Source: an uncultured Bacteroidia bacterium
GTDB lineage: Bacteria; Bacteroidota; Bacteroidia; Bacteroidales; Prolixibacteraceae
DNA: 64,000 nt
NCBI GenBank assembly: GCA_903923905.1
Contig: CAIXZH010000009.1
Location: 1-64,000 of the forward strand
Direction: 5' to 3'
Positions 35,362 to 39,396 of this stretch are shown here, piece after piece (within the stretch, counting starts at the first letter, position 1; every line of letters begins with the position of its first letter). The position numbers were made by a program, and so were the translations under genes. The notes beneath the pieces are model-generated. The model saw only the letters and a list, made by a program, of their open reading frames with translations, searched no databases and had not been told where the DNA came from.

Positions 35362-36672
35362 ATGGCAACTCTAAAACCTATCATTTTGCACCATCAGTCA
35401 AAGAAGGCTGGCGAATGTAATATCTATATTCGGGTCACTGCACACCGTACTGTAGTGAATATCAAGACAGATATTTTTGTTTTACCGGATAACTTCCGTG
35501 ACTCAAAAGTCATTGGAGGCAAAAATGGAGACCGTAATGCTCAAATCAAGAATATCCGTATTTCGGAGATTATGACGAAATACGAACGTGAAATTCTTGA
35601 TAATCCTACAAAAACGGATCAGCTCGACGCTTTGGCTCTGAAAAATTTTTTAATTGCAGGGCCAGAAAGGTACATTACCGATTTTTTTAAGTTTACCGAA
35701 GCCCGGTTGGAACAGCTTAAGAAATCCGACAAAAAAAGTACAATAGCATTTTTGTATAATACTCTGTAACGAGTAAAAGAATTCCATAAGCGTCCAACTT
35801 TAAATTTCTCCGAGATTACCCCTGATTTTTTAGAGCAATTTTGTGCTTATTATTTAAGAAAGAATTATAAACTTAATTCGGTAGCGATTTATTGCAGGTA
35901 TATCCGAACCATGTTTAACCTGGCAATTGACGAATACAACGTCAATATTGCCAGTCCTGTGATCCTAAACTATCCCTTCCGTAAATTTAAAATTGCAACG
36001 GAGCCCACCCAAAACAGAAACTTGTCAATCGATATAATTAGGGCAATCCGGGATTTTAAGACGATTTCAAAACGTGAAGAGATTACAAGAGATATTTTCA
36101 TGTTGCAAATGTTTTTGGCTGGTATTAATATTAAGGATCTGTTTTATCTGAAACCTTCAGCAGTTATTGATGACCGGTTGCAATTCAGCCGGTTTAAAAC
36201 CGGGCGCTTTTACAATATTAAAATTGAACCTGAAGCACAGGAAATCATTAATAAGTACAAGGGTGAAAAATATCTGTTCTGGTTTGCTGATTACTGTTTG
36301 GAAGAGCGAAGCGGAAATTCAGTAAAGCATAGCCACAAAACTGAATTTCAATATGCAAATCAGGTCGCATTTAATAAGATGTTAAATGTACAGCTTAAAA
36401 CAGTGGAAGATCGTCTAAAGCTAAAACTGGCATCACCTTTGACGACCTACTGGGCCCGTCACTCATTTGCTACAGTGATGCGTGAAATTGGGATCTCCAA
36501 AGATGATATCTCATTGTGCCTTGGCCACATCAACCCGGAACAAAACCTGCGAACATCAGGCATTTATATCAAGGAAGATTTCTTAAGAATGGACGTTGCC
36601 AACCGCAAATTAATTGATTTTATCATTAAAGACATAGAACAAGACCAAGCCTTGAATCAAAATATTCAATAA
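35362..36672 (+). pseudogene. tyrosine recombinase (phage-type integrase) broken by one in-frame stop
   Basis: Codons before and after a TAA at 35767-35769 are in the same frame, and together they give a 436-codon integrase. The N-terminal part (to KSTIAFLYNTL) is the arm-binding and SAM-like region. The sequence then resumes RVKEFHKRPTLNFSEITPDF. The catalytic domain shows LAGINIKDLFYLKPSAV (the first Arg replaced by Ile, as in some Bacteroidota members), TTYWARHSFATVM (box II Arg-His), LGHINPEQNLRTSG and the nucleophile Tyr in GIYIKEDF. A single A-to-T or C-to-T change of an ordinary codon explains the stop. A shorter product starting at ATG 35911 would lack the DNA-arm region. It sits next to tRNA-Met as the first gene of a prophage-like remnant. 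Confidence 0.85.
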
Positions 36673-36695
36673 TCTATACACAGCAGGTTTGTATT

Positions 36696-36720
36696 GTAAA
36701 GAAAATTTGAAAATCTTTAC
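36696..36720. promoter_or_regulatory. palindromic operator 1 upstream of fic
   Basis: GTAAAGA (36696-36702) and TCTTTAC (36714-36720) are reverse complements flanking AAATTTGAAAA. The central TTTG is also the -33 element of the promoter described at 36706. The same 11-base centre and arm layout recur in operator 2, 41 bases downstream. Confidence 0.75.
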
Positions 36721-36737
36721 ACAATAGATTATCTTTG
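36706..36737 (+). promoter_or_regulatory. fic promoter (TTTG-N20-TATCTTTG)
   Basis: TTTG at 36706-36709 and TATCTTTG at 36730-36737 match the Bacteroidota promoter with a 20-base spacer. The -33 box lies inside operator 1, and the last base of the -7 box is the first base of operator 2. Transcription would begin inside operator 2, giving a leader of about 20 bases. Confidence 0.7.
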
Positions 36738-36761
36738 TATAGAAAATTTGAAAATCTATAC
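36737..36761. promoter_or_regulatory. palindromic operator 2 upstream of fic
   Basis: GTATAGA (36737-36743) and TCTATAC (36755-36761) are reverse complements flanking the same AAATTTGAAAA centre as operator 1. It ends 3 bases before the fic ATG. A lone TCTATAC half-site at 36673-36679 is exactly 41 bases before the matching half of operator 1 (36714), which is itself 41 before 36755. Confidence 0.75.
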
Positions 36762-36764
36762 ATT

Positions 36765-37844
36765 ATGAGCGTCCAAGAAAAATGGGAACTAATGGAGTTA
36801 CCTCTAAAAATTGACTTAGAGACAAGGCAAATTTTAAAAAGTTTACCTTCTGCTCATGCTGCTTTGGCTGAATTGAAAGGGATTGCTTCAACAATACCAA
36901 ACCAGAATATTTTAATTAATACACTCGGTTTGCAAGAAGCAAAAGACAGTTCTGCAATTGAAAACATTATCACGACACACGATGATTTATATAAATCAGA
37001 ACTGAACCTGGATACATTTAAGCCATTAAATGCTAAAGAGGTTCAGAATTATATTTCAGCTTTAAAAAAAGGATATGAACTGACTTCGCAAAGCGGCTTA
37101 TTGACAAACAGGATAATTTTGGAAATTCAGGAAGTCCTGGAAGAGAATACTGCAGGATTTCGAAAACTGCCAGGAACAGCATTAAAAAATGCGGCAACCG
37201 GCGAGACAATTTATACTCCGCCACAGGATTTTGATACGATTAACCGCCTGATGGCAAATCTTGAGAATTTTATGAATGACCCCGCGATTTGTGATTACGA
37301 TCCTTTAATTAAAATGGCGATTATTCATTTTCAATTCGAAAGTATTCATCCATTTTACGATGGGAATGGCCGGACTGGCAGGATTATTAATATTCTTTAT
37401 CTGATTCTCGAAAAGCTTCAGACGTTGCCAATCTTATATCTTAGCAGTTACATTATAAATCACAAATCGGATTATTATCGGCTATTACAGGAGGTGAGGG
37501 AAAAAAATTTCTGGGAAGAGTGGGTCCTATTTATGGTTCATGGAATCGAGAAAACCTCCAGGGAAACGATTGATCTGATCATTAAAATCAGGGAACTAAT
37601 GATGATTTATAAATACAAATTACGTGACAATTATAAGTTTTACAGTCAGGATTTGTTGAACAATTTATTTAAGCATCCATACACCAAGATTGAATTTGTT
37701 GTCAATGATCTTAATGTTTCACGGATTACTGCTGCGAATTATTTAAATAAATTGGCGGAGGATGGTTTGCTCAAAAAAGAAAAACTCGGAACCGGGAATT
37801 ATTACATCAATGTTCCTTTGGTTGAGTTATTGACCAGGCGATAG
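36765..37844 (+). CDS. fic: Fic family protein (class II) with C-terminal winged HTH
   Basis: A 359-residue enzyme that usually transfers AMP from ATP to Ser/Thr/Tyr of target proteins. An N-terminal Fic_N region carries the inhibitory motif SSAIEN (Glu near residue 66), which blocks ATP binding in class II Fic proteins. The full catalytic motif HPFYDGNGRTGR begins at H195. The last 70 residues form a winged helix-turn-helix (VVNDLNVSRITAANYLNKLA then EDGLLKKEKLGTGNYY). I start at ATG 36765 because it follows the operators. An ATG at 36735 would lie inside the promoter. The HTH and operators suggest autoregulation. The target protein is unknown. Confidence 0.92.
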   Translation: MSVQEKWELMELPLKIDLETRQILKSLPSAHAALAELKGIASTIPNQNILINTLGLQEAKDSSAIENIITTHDDLYKSELNLDTFKPLNAKEVQNYISALKKGYELTSQSGLLTNRIILEIQEVLEENTAGFRKLPGTALKNAATGETIYTPPQDFDTINRLMANLENFMNDPAICDYDPLIKMAIIHFQFESIHPFYDGNGRTGRIINILYLILEKLQTLPILYLSSYIINHKSDYYRLLQEVREKNFWEEWVLFMVHGIEKTSRETIDLIIKIRELMMIYKYKLRDNYKFYSQDLLNNLFKHPYTKIEFVVNDLNVSRITAANYLNKLAEDGLLKKEKLGTGNYYINVPLVELLTRR

Positions 37845-38412: not shown

Positions 38413-38694
38413 CTAACCGCTCTCTTTTTTATCCTTGCGTTCCCGGATTCTGGCCACCCGCCGTAAAAGCCTTGCTACTTTTCTATCTTCCCGCGTTGAT
38501 GGCTCAACGGAACCTTCGGTAGATTCATGATCCATCGTAACATTGGCCGAGTTTCCCTGGCCGCGTAGTTTTAACTTTCCGATACTGGTATTGTCGTTGA
38601 TTACCGTTTCGGGTCCGTCCAATTTCAAAAAGATTACCAGTCCGGCGATGATGCCGGCAAACAGGGTTGACAGGTAGGTCCAAATGTTTTTCAT
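38413..38694 (-). CDS. small membrane protein of the lysis cassette
   Basis: A 93-residue protein with one N-terminal helix (TYLSTLFAGIIAGLVIFLKL) and a soluble tail ending in a strongly basic stretch (REDRKVARLLRRVARIRERK). No family recognised. It starts 2 bases after the endolysin stop on the minus strand. A holin- or antiholin-like role is possible from context only. Confidence 0.6.
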   Translation of the reverse strand: MKNIWTYLSTLFAGIIAGLVIFLKLDGPETVINDNTSIGKLKLRGQGNSANVTMDHESTEGSVEPSTREDRKVARLLRRVARIRERKDKKESG

Positions 38695-38696
38695 CC

Positions 38697-39053
38697 TTAA
38701 ATTTCATTTCGTTGAAAATGCGGCGTATCAATAAATCCACTCCAATTGCCACCCCATTTATTTTGGGGGGTTAATGTTTCCCACCAATCACCCAATGGTT
38801 GAATATCTGCCTTATTATAGGTCAGTTCCAAGGCTCCGGAGGAACCCTTTTTGAAGAAATTCAGATCAATGGCCATTCGATCCTGGTGCAGGCTATGGCG
38901 TAATTTCGATTTTCCGGAGGCGAAATGAAGATCCTGTTGCTCCTGTGTCCGGAAGAGCTCTCCGCCCGTAATGGTCAATCCAAACAGCGGAGCCTGCTCA
39001 ATTAGCTTTGCTGCATCCTGCAGAAAAGCGGCTTGTTGTTCAACTTTACTCAT
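38697..39053 (-). CDS. M15-type peptidoglycan peptidase (phage endolysin)
   Basis: A 118-residue single-domain enzyme of the VanY/L-alanyl-D-glutamate peptidase type found in phage. The zinc site is seen as H56 and D63 in SLHQDRMAIDLNFF and H112 in DTPHFQ. The segment GLTITGGELFRTQEQQDLHF matches the family's N-terminal half (it has the usual R-x3-Q-x3 pattern). No signal peptide is present, so it needs a holin to reach the wall. It overlaps the upstream gene by 8 bases. Confidence 0.85.
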   Translation of the reverse strand: MSKVEQQAAFLQDAAKLIEQAPLFGLTITGGELFRTQEQQDLHFASGKSKLRHSLHQDRMAIDLNFFKKGSSGALELTYNKADIQPLGDWWETLTPQNKWGGNWSGFIDTPHFQRNEI

Positions 39054-39396
39054 TGGTTGAATTTTTTTTATTGAAAATTTTAAGTTGATTGATTAGTTTG
39101 CGGTTTTCTTCTTCCAGCAGGTGCATCTTTTTGCGAAGCGTTTCGTTTTCCTGGACCACGTTTTTGACCTGTTGCTCCAAATCGCAATTGTCCCTACGCA
39201 GCTGGTCAATCTCTTCCTTGAATCGTTTTTCCATCCCCTCGCTCAATTCCCGCCACATCAAAACAATCTTGGCGGTGTTATCCAACTCTTTTGAATTTGC
39301 TTCAGCTGCTCTTTTTCGCATGGCAAATAACCAGGTTGCAAATGAAGCCGCCAGGGGTCCAATAATCAGCATTACTGTCTCATTCATTTTCTGCAA
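39046..39396 (-). CDS. holin-like membrane protein with coiled coil
   Basis: A 116-residue protein. One helix near residues 7-26 (VMLIIGPLAASFATWLFAMR) is followed by a long coiled coil (about 45-110, MEKRFKEEIDQLRRDNCDLE). It resembles small phage proteins encoded just before endolysins, so a holin or spanin-type role is likely, though no family is recognised. ATG 39387 is an alternative start. It is the first gene of the cassette and overlaps the endolysin gene. Confidence 0.65.
   Translation of the reverse strand: MQKMNETVMLIIGPLAASFATWLFAMRKRAAEANSKELDNTAKIVLMWRELSEGMEKRFKEEIDQLRRDNCDLEQQVKNVVQENETLRKKMHLLEEENRKLINQLKIFNKKNSTNE

Follow-up and report, generated by a model that had tools for sequence, protein, structure and literature searches.

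The 64,000-nucleotide stretch of DNA analysed here (the window; positions 1 to 64,000 of contig CAIXZH010000009.1, assembly GCA_903923905.1, from an uncultured Bacteroidia bacterium of the Prolixibacteraceae) carries a fic gene whose product, a SoFic-type AMPylase, very probably represses its own gene from a phased operator array. The array comprises two palindromic operators and one further half-site, with 8-bp arms, an 11-bp spacer and a 41-bp repeat; it straddles the predicted −7 promoter box and lies between an interrupted tyrosine recombinase gene and fic. Self-repression by Fic was the core of an original prediction made from the letters of the window, and comparative evidence now speaks for it on two counts, namely that the sites are kept before close homologues and that the half-site seems to follow the recognition helix of the protein. 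The elements of the array and its promoter are the following.

36673–36680, minus strand: half-site TCTATACA, read as the right half of a third (upstream) operator from the sequence and its register in homologues
36695–36721, no strand assigned: operator 2, TGTAAAGA-N11-TCTTTACA, around the proposed −33 element, from the pattern match and the arms in homologues
36706–36709, plus strand: TTTG, a possible −33 element within operator 2, 20 bp before the −7 box, from the sequence
36730–36737, plus strand: TATCTTTG, the predicted −7 element, whose final TG opens operator 1, from the TAnnTTTG register in homologues
36736–36762, no strand assigned: operator 1, TGTATAGA-N11-TCTATACA, which begins in the −7 box and stops 2 bp short of the start codon

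The half-sites TCTATAC, TCTTTAC and TCTATAC begin at 36673, 36714 and 36755, each lying exactly 41 bp from the next, and the operator cores read GTAAAGA-AAATTTGAAAA-TCTTTAC and GTATAGA-AAATTTGAAAA-TCTATAC, with one extra paired base per arm (TGTA..TACA). The original prediction of two palindromes with the common centre AAATTTGAAAA and of half-sites in 41-bp steps is correct to the base, and the −7 box does end, as it had said, on the first G of GTATAGA. The left partner of the 36673 half-site is missing in the window. Exact matches to TGTAWAGA-N11-TCTWTACA occur only at these two places, both in the window and in the 5.4-Mb genome, and the palindromes exceed chance occurrence in the genome. 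When up to two mismatches are allowed, the genome holds 8 forward matches versus 12 for a reversed-pattern control, so the remaining matches look like background.

The array is tied to fic. With up to three mismatches tolerated, 15 of 149 genomes, our own included, contain the 68-bp two-operator pattern, versus 0/149 for the reversed control; 14 of the 15 matches lie within 64 bp upstream of fic, and the fifteenth (G011) is a contig end inside the array. A fic gene at least 76% identical is present in 15 genomes, 14 of them with the pattern, the exception (G042, locus L008) having a gap one base longer. These counts bear on the idea that another local or global regulator reads the sites and controls fic, the winged helix of Fic serving elsewhere. 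Sites by themselves cannot name their reader; nevertheless, across the 149 genomes the two-operator pattern stands only at fic loci or, once, at the contig end, open reading frame (ORF) families downstream are common to at most 2 of 74 loci (of the upstream neighbours, only the recombinase was compared), and the half-site varies with the Fic recognition helix. We consider such a regulator improbable. The same downstream comparison, confined to ATG-started ORFs of at least 30 amino acids within 500 bp of fic, gave a largest family of 2/74 loci and hence no conserved small partner gene of the kind found in two-gene Fic toxin–antitoxin modules (AS1, Phd/Doc or FicTA type).

The recombinase on the other side of the array (35362–36672) offers a different explanation, in which the repeats are its accessory or attachment sites and not operators of fic. 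Tyrosine recombinases use repeated arm sites, and this recombinase gene ends at the upstream half-site; however, among the 74 homologous loci that span 3.9 kb or more, pieces of it (E ≤ 1e-5) were matched in only one, namely the window itself, and its reading frame is broken by an in-frame stop. The explanation is scarcely credible, and attachment sites were rejected as a candidate. The recombinase carries Arm-DNA-bind_5, with Phage_integrase below its cut-off, and a second recombinase piece follows the in-frame TAA (35767–35769) in the same reading frame; it is probably an inactive remnant of a mobile element. A terminator scan returned two minus-strand sites within this gene (36640–36654 and 36545–36561), versus 0.2 in shuffles.

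Conservation was assessed in homologues gathered by three overlapping genome searches, which retrieved 39/149 relatives (E ≤ 1e-60, own genome included), 48/395 genomes of the class (1e-90) and 31/395 of the phylum (1e-100), and by a fourth search, in named genomes, from which the best 80 of 391 loci were taken. From 192 loci with a match, one with a late match start, two with a short upstream region and 20 with identical upstream regions were removed, leaving 169; four hits (one from the relatives, two from the class and one from the phylum search) were left out of the sample. Close relatives are over-represented in it, owing to the overlapping genome samples and the choice of the best 80 of 391 named-genome loci. 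The original prediction had named a comparison of upstream regions of fic homologues beforehand as its refuting test, and the palindromes proved conserved: in 76 of the 80 homologues at ≥74% identity, fic is preceded by an N11 palindrome (≥7 of the 8 arm pairs), versus 13/80 dinucleotide shuffles. Half-site distances in homologues are almost fixed, with 150 counts at 19 bp from left to right (within a palindrome), 108 at 22 bp from right to left (to the next one), and, for half-sites of the same orientation, 91 and 106 counts at 41 bp and 23 and 34 at 82 bp. With at most one mismatch, the arms of operator 2 were recovered in 75 and 73 and those of operator 1 in 73 and 77 of the 80 homologues, counts that shift slightly, with spurious F0/R0 hits, where some rows have their half-site register displaced by one operator. 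The third operator is rarer (right half 30/80 and left half 14/80 at up to one mismatch; 48 and 24 at up to two), and a fourth was found by register in 0/80; by its register, the 36673 half-site belongs to a third operator kept by a minority of relatives. In the column alignment, which retained 77 of the 80 homologues (three dropped), the information content per column is 1.60–1.64 bits in the four arms, 0.74 and 0.93 in the two spacers, 0.96 in the −7-box gap and 0.82 and 0.40 in the third-operator arms. The shared centre AAATTTGAAAA was rejected as a conserved element, given the arm and spacer values. Two main-clade loci (L057 and L180) mix TGTAAAGA half-sites with TGATAAGA/TCTTATCA in one lattice (by eye), possibly a switch of specificity in progress.

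We take TATCTTTG to be the −7 element of the Bacteroidota promoter type; TAnnTTTG at this register, overlapping operator 1, recurs in 63/77 aligned homologues. The −33 TTTG does lie inside operator 2, as had been predicted, but it is found at that exact place in only 9/77 homologues (TTG anywhere nearby in 32/77), and a strictly conserved −33 TTTG was rejected. A sigma-70 scan gave two sites versus 1.8 in shuffles. An ATG or GTG start follows the last half-site by 1–2 nt in 73/77 homologues, which makes ATG 36765 the likely start of fic and led us to reject TTG 36735. In L162, a clade-3 homologue, the last half-site (ACATGA) contains an ATG in frame (by eye). Inverted repeats directly before a start codon might also function at the RNA level, for instance as a hairpin, an attenuator or the leader of a riboswitch. 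Against this, a −7 box at 36730–36737 would leave most of the array upstream of the transcript, the 41-bp repeat runs on to the third site, and an Rfam scan of 36400–37000 returned no family at gathering score; a known RNA family at the array was accordingly rejected, and action in RNA is highly improbable.

The features of the Fic protein are these.

36765–37844, plus strand: fic, a SoFic-type class II Fic protein of 359 amino acids, from Pfam and PADLOC
36948–36965, plus strand: SSAIEN, the N-terminal inhibitory-helix motif, with S62, S63, E66 and N67 invariant in 29 sequences
37347–37382, plus strand: HPFYDGNGRTGR, the complete catalytic Fic motif, 11 of 12 columns invariant in 29 sequences and the twelfth nearly so
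37647–37808, plus strand: the predicted C-terminal winged helix, residues 295–348, from Pfam SoFic-like_C and an AlphaFold2 model

Pfam Fic_N, Fic and SoFic-like_C all score above their gathering thresholds, the PADLOC SoFic model matches at E=2.2e-117, and residues 16–357 match eight solved SoFic-like chains (PDB 3eqx, 3zcn, 9tc4 and others) at E 1e-79 to 6e-76. The NCBIfam SoFic equivalog cut-off (550 bits) is missed at 364.3 bits, which marks the protein as a relative and not as NCBIfam's named equivalog. Both the catalytic motif and SSAIEN are intact; the general inhibitory-helix pattern is [S/T]xxxE[G/N]. Counterparts of SSAIEN in other Fic proteins are SARIEG (PMC9755527) and TSAIEG (PMC10628234). 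The AlphaFold2 model, for which 29 sequences were used and which has a mean pLDDT of 83.2 with weak stretches at residues 1–4, 64–89 and 134–136, places helices at 295–303, 309–316 and 320–332, the last being the recognition helix, and strands at 337–341 and 344–348; the C-terminal helix–turn–helix (HTH) anticipated in the original prediction is borne out by this modelled winged helix and by SoFic-like_C. The next-best match in the same genome has 27% identity, and three other distant Fic-like matches were noted there at 26–37% identity (G000:C2:17155, C60:24286 and C41:2555).

In the homologues, the half-site changes with the recognition helix of Fic. An array of TGTAWA half-sites accompanies 101 of 130 [ST]RxTA helices versus 0/14 ERKAA, 0/8 TPKTV, 0/4 SLNT[AV] and 0/2 SRTTL; among helix variants seen once, CRLTA and SRITV have the array and eight others lack it. 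In the catalytic part, members with TCATGTAWA half-sites and members of clade 1 are each 53% identical to the main clade, whereas in the recognition helix the former share 65% with it, together with the ATGTAWA core, versus 50% for clade 1. Because the half-site tracks the recognition helix, these data point to Fic as the protein that reads the half-sites, within few clades that are related by descent.

Beyond the close homologues, several remoter clades retain a repeat of 39–42 bp with half-sites of different sequence, and others lack it. Clustering of 168 proteins (one short sequence dropped) gave six clades of at least three members and 14 sequences in smaller ones. Self-match peaks in the upstream regions fall at 41 (113 sequences), 41 and 31 (12), 41 (5), 30 and 40 (8) and, weakly, 39–40 (4), and at 20, 50 and 40 in clade 1 (12 sequences). 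The clade half-sites read TGTAWAGA, TCATGTAWA, ATGTAAAGA, CGAGTGTAA and TTTGACA, with TGTACCAAA in clade 1, where eight TGTACCAAA pairs form a single palindrome at 18-bp spacing. A motif-free test, the fractional count of sequences whose best self-match lag is 39–42 with shuffle means as control, gave 70.8/80 (shuffles 6.5), 23.0/33 (2.7), 6.3/15 (0.7), 5.0/12 (0.5), 3.0/5 (0.6), 3.3/8 (0.2) and 2.0/4 (0.3) in successive groups, and 7.8/169 on the fic coding sequence. Plasmids provided 12 homologues from outside the Bacteroidota (four Gammaproteobacteria, six Alphaproteobacteria and two Cyanobacteria), out of 40 among 261 plasmid records with a homologue. Their best lag is 39–42 in 8.0/12 versus 1.0 in shuffles, with peaks at 40 in Psychrobacter, 42 in two Azotobacter, 41 in Marinobacter, 41 in Asticcacaulis, 40 in Peteryoungia and 41 in Sphingobium, and a tied lag of 39–42 in Croceibacterium. 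In the two Azotobacter plasmids (L200 and L208), fic has a class I DNA methyltransferase gene on one side and a restriction subunit S gene on the other, and in Acetobacter (L205) and Geminocystis (L202) it adjoins methylation or restriction genes. The upstream region of E. coli SoFic (L211; one of nine matching genomes) has no 41-bp peak among lags up to 62; two perfect palindromes within 120 bp upstream of the gene, ATCGACATATGATGACTATATGTCGAT and TCGACATGTTTGGACTACATGTCGA, lie 70 bp from each other inside a longer direct repeat. A phage collection yielded five homologue records, the best at 57% identity, with no TGTAWA array upstream by eye and a best lag of 40 (17 of 27). Judged from these sequences, a phased row of inverted sites is a common feature upstream of genes of this protein group, 41 bp being the prevailing but not a universal repeat.

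On the preferred reading, the C-terminal winged helix of Fic would bind TGTAWAGA half-sites, and two or three operators every 41 bp, with alternating spacings of 19 and 22 bp, would place Fic molecules in similar helical phase. Neighbouring molecules would probably touch, and the short row that results would span the −33 region, the −7 box and the beginning of the transcript. Accumulated Fic would thereby exclude RNA polymerase by steric autorepression, and a potentially toxic solitary enzyme would stay scarce without a partner antitoxin. The cooperative, one-face binding of the original prediction is partly favoured by the spacings: 41 bp is within ~1 bp of four helical turns, which would set neighbours on nearly the same DNA face, and the 30–31 bp of another clade approximates three turns; on the other side, spacings of 39–40 and 30–31 bp depart from the 41-bp repeat, 39 bp being a poorer fit to helical phase. 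We infer contact between neighbouring molecules, and half-sites that are kept without a partner at either end would have contacts on both sides, which suggests a row and not separate dimers.

Alternatively, Fic dimers may bind each operator independently, the 41 bp reflecting promoter layout and no cooperative row. Operators 1 and 2 stand on either side of the −7 box, and the promoter could thus set their distance; the third operator is kept by a minority only (right half 30/80), and clade 1 manages with one palindrome. By contrast, the upstream operator, where present, keeps the 41-bp register outside the core promoter (82-bp counts of 23 and 34), and in clades 3 and 12 one of the spacings differs by a full helical turn (14 or 24 bp; 12 or 22 bp). 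Independent dimers are unlikely, although of appreciable probability. In clade 3 the right-to-left spacing is steady at 17 bp (16 counts) and the left-to-right one is 14 (14 counts) or 24 (9); in clade 12 the corresponding values are 18 (10 counts) and 22 (6) or 12 (4). The steady right-to-left and the one-turn-shifting left-to-right spacings favour an N14-type pair as the rigid dimer unit, whereas the last right half-site of the main clade, kept in 77/80 homologues without a regular downstream partner, favours the N11 pair. Four clade-3 loci (L162, L170, L171 and L172) show the half-site spacings 14/17/24/17/14, symmetrical about the middle operator.

Several observations weigh against self-repression from such an array. 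TGTAWA arrays are absent before 29 of the 130 [ST]RxTA proteins. Of four clade-3 members that fall outside the core of that clade, three lack a repeated word, and two of these carry an ERKAA helix resembling that of clade 1. The link between helix and site is drawn from a small number of clades, with common descent as a partial confounder. Upstream TGTAWAGA half-sites are lacking in 10/40 homologues at 55–74% identity and in 22/49 below 55%. Clade 1 has a best lag of 39–42 in 0.6/12 (shuffles 1.7), its single palindromes showing no 41-bp repeat; among the plasmids, the Acetobacter and Sulfitobacter homologues have no best lag at 40–42 and both Cyanobacteria lack an array. A/T covariation is phi 0.25–0.47 for the N11 pair versus 0.17–0.42 for other pairs, and the N11 pair is not singled out as the binding unit. 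In addition, an earlier report states that SoFic had yet to be shown to bind DNA (PMC10628234).

The array might have a second role as a DNA scaffold that serves as the enzyme's antitoxin, holding dimers or a short filament in an inhibited or deAMPylating state while the gene is silenced. Phage attack would then destroy or unload the scaffold, or a nucleotide would swing the winged helix away, freeing the enzyme and derepressing the gene together. We regard this as doubtful; if true, the recurrence of the lattice across several phyla would reflect selection for assembly and not only for repression. Downstream of fic, a minus-strand cluster of small ORFs (38413–39396), one of which resembles a peptidoglycan peptidase by eye (38697–39053), may be a remnant of phage lysis genes.

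SoFic is classed as a one-gene anti-phage system whose toxicity-regulating mechanisms 'remain elusive', and the wild-type protein is apparently toxic on leaky expression, as stated in the accessible sections of the 2025 EcSofic paper (PMC12249575). A conserved self-operator in fixed phase, if true, would explain how a solitary AMPylase is kept at a low level without a partner. Self-repression would also supply predicted specific DNA sites clade by clade, with pairs of helix and half-site as material for a recognition code, and would make testable whether DNA occupancy sets the AMPylase versus the deAMPylase state and which signal lifts repression.

Among known systems, our Fic resembles SoFic/EcSofic in its homologous residues 16–357, its domains and its match to the PADLOC SoFic model. 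EcSofic has a 47-residue downstream antitoxin, AS1, whereas the fic loci here share no downstream ORF (2/74); the accessible sections of that paper mention DNA solely in connection with cloning, defence or references, and mention neither an HTH nor transcription (PMC12249575). CbFic2 likewise combines Fic with a winged HTH; it binds DNA through the HTH, with ~20 bp proposed to span both monomers, and DNA shifts the protein to the dimer and towards deAMPylation, but the available part of the report used random DNA and knows no specific operator (PMC10628234). By analogy, our alternating 19/22-bp spacings are compatible with that ~20-bp two-monomer proposal (PMC10628234). The suggestion in the original prediction that the AMPylation state or the inhibitory helix controls repression is made plausible only by precedents in other Fic proteins (PMC10628234, PMC12249575). 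Autoregulation of AbiE toxin–antitoxin systems also relies on inverted repeats before a toxic module, with cooperativity that is positive in S. agalactiae and negative in the M. tuberculosis case; there the antitoxin binds DNA, whereas here the enzyme itself has the DNA-binding domain (PMC7319586, PMC3985639, in the parts available). Among the top-listed papers of the open-licence literature, outside which most subscription papers and all bioRxiv preprints lie, none described phased operator arrays upstream of fic, and the accessible portions of three further papers (PMC12894286, PMC2701414, PMC3667792) gave no precedent beyond CccR. A close parallel is this CccR of Yersinia pseudotuberculosis (Nat Commun, 2022), a class II Fic protein with a C-terminal winged HTH and, as here, an inverted repeat over its own promoter, which it represses through AGATAATCAT-N26-ATGATAATCT with the dimer required. 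As described in the available part of that paper, CccR is additionally a secreted effector, and its repeat, near −35 and −10, is single, with 10-bp arms and a 26-bp spacer, whereas our array has two operators and a half-site with N11 spacers at 41 bp (PMC9755527). Fic autorepression is already known from CccR; what appears to be new here, as read from the sequences compared, is a distinctive and widely conserved operator lattice.
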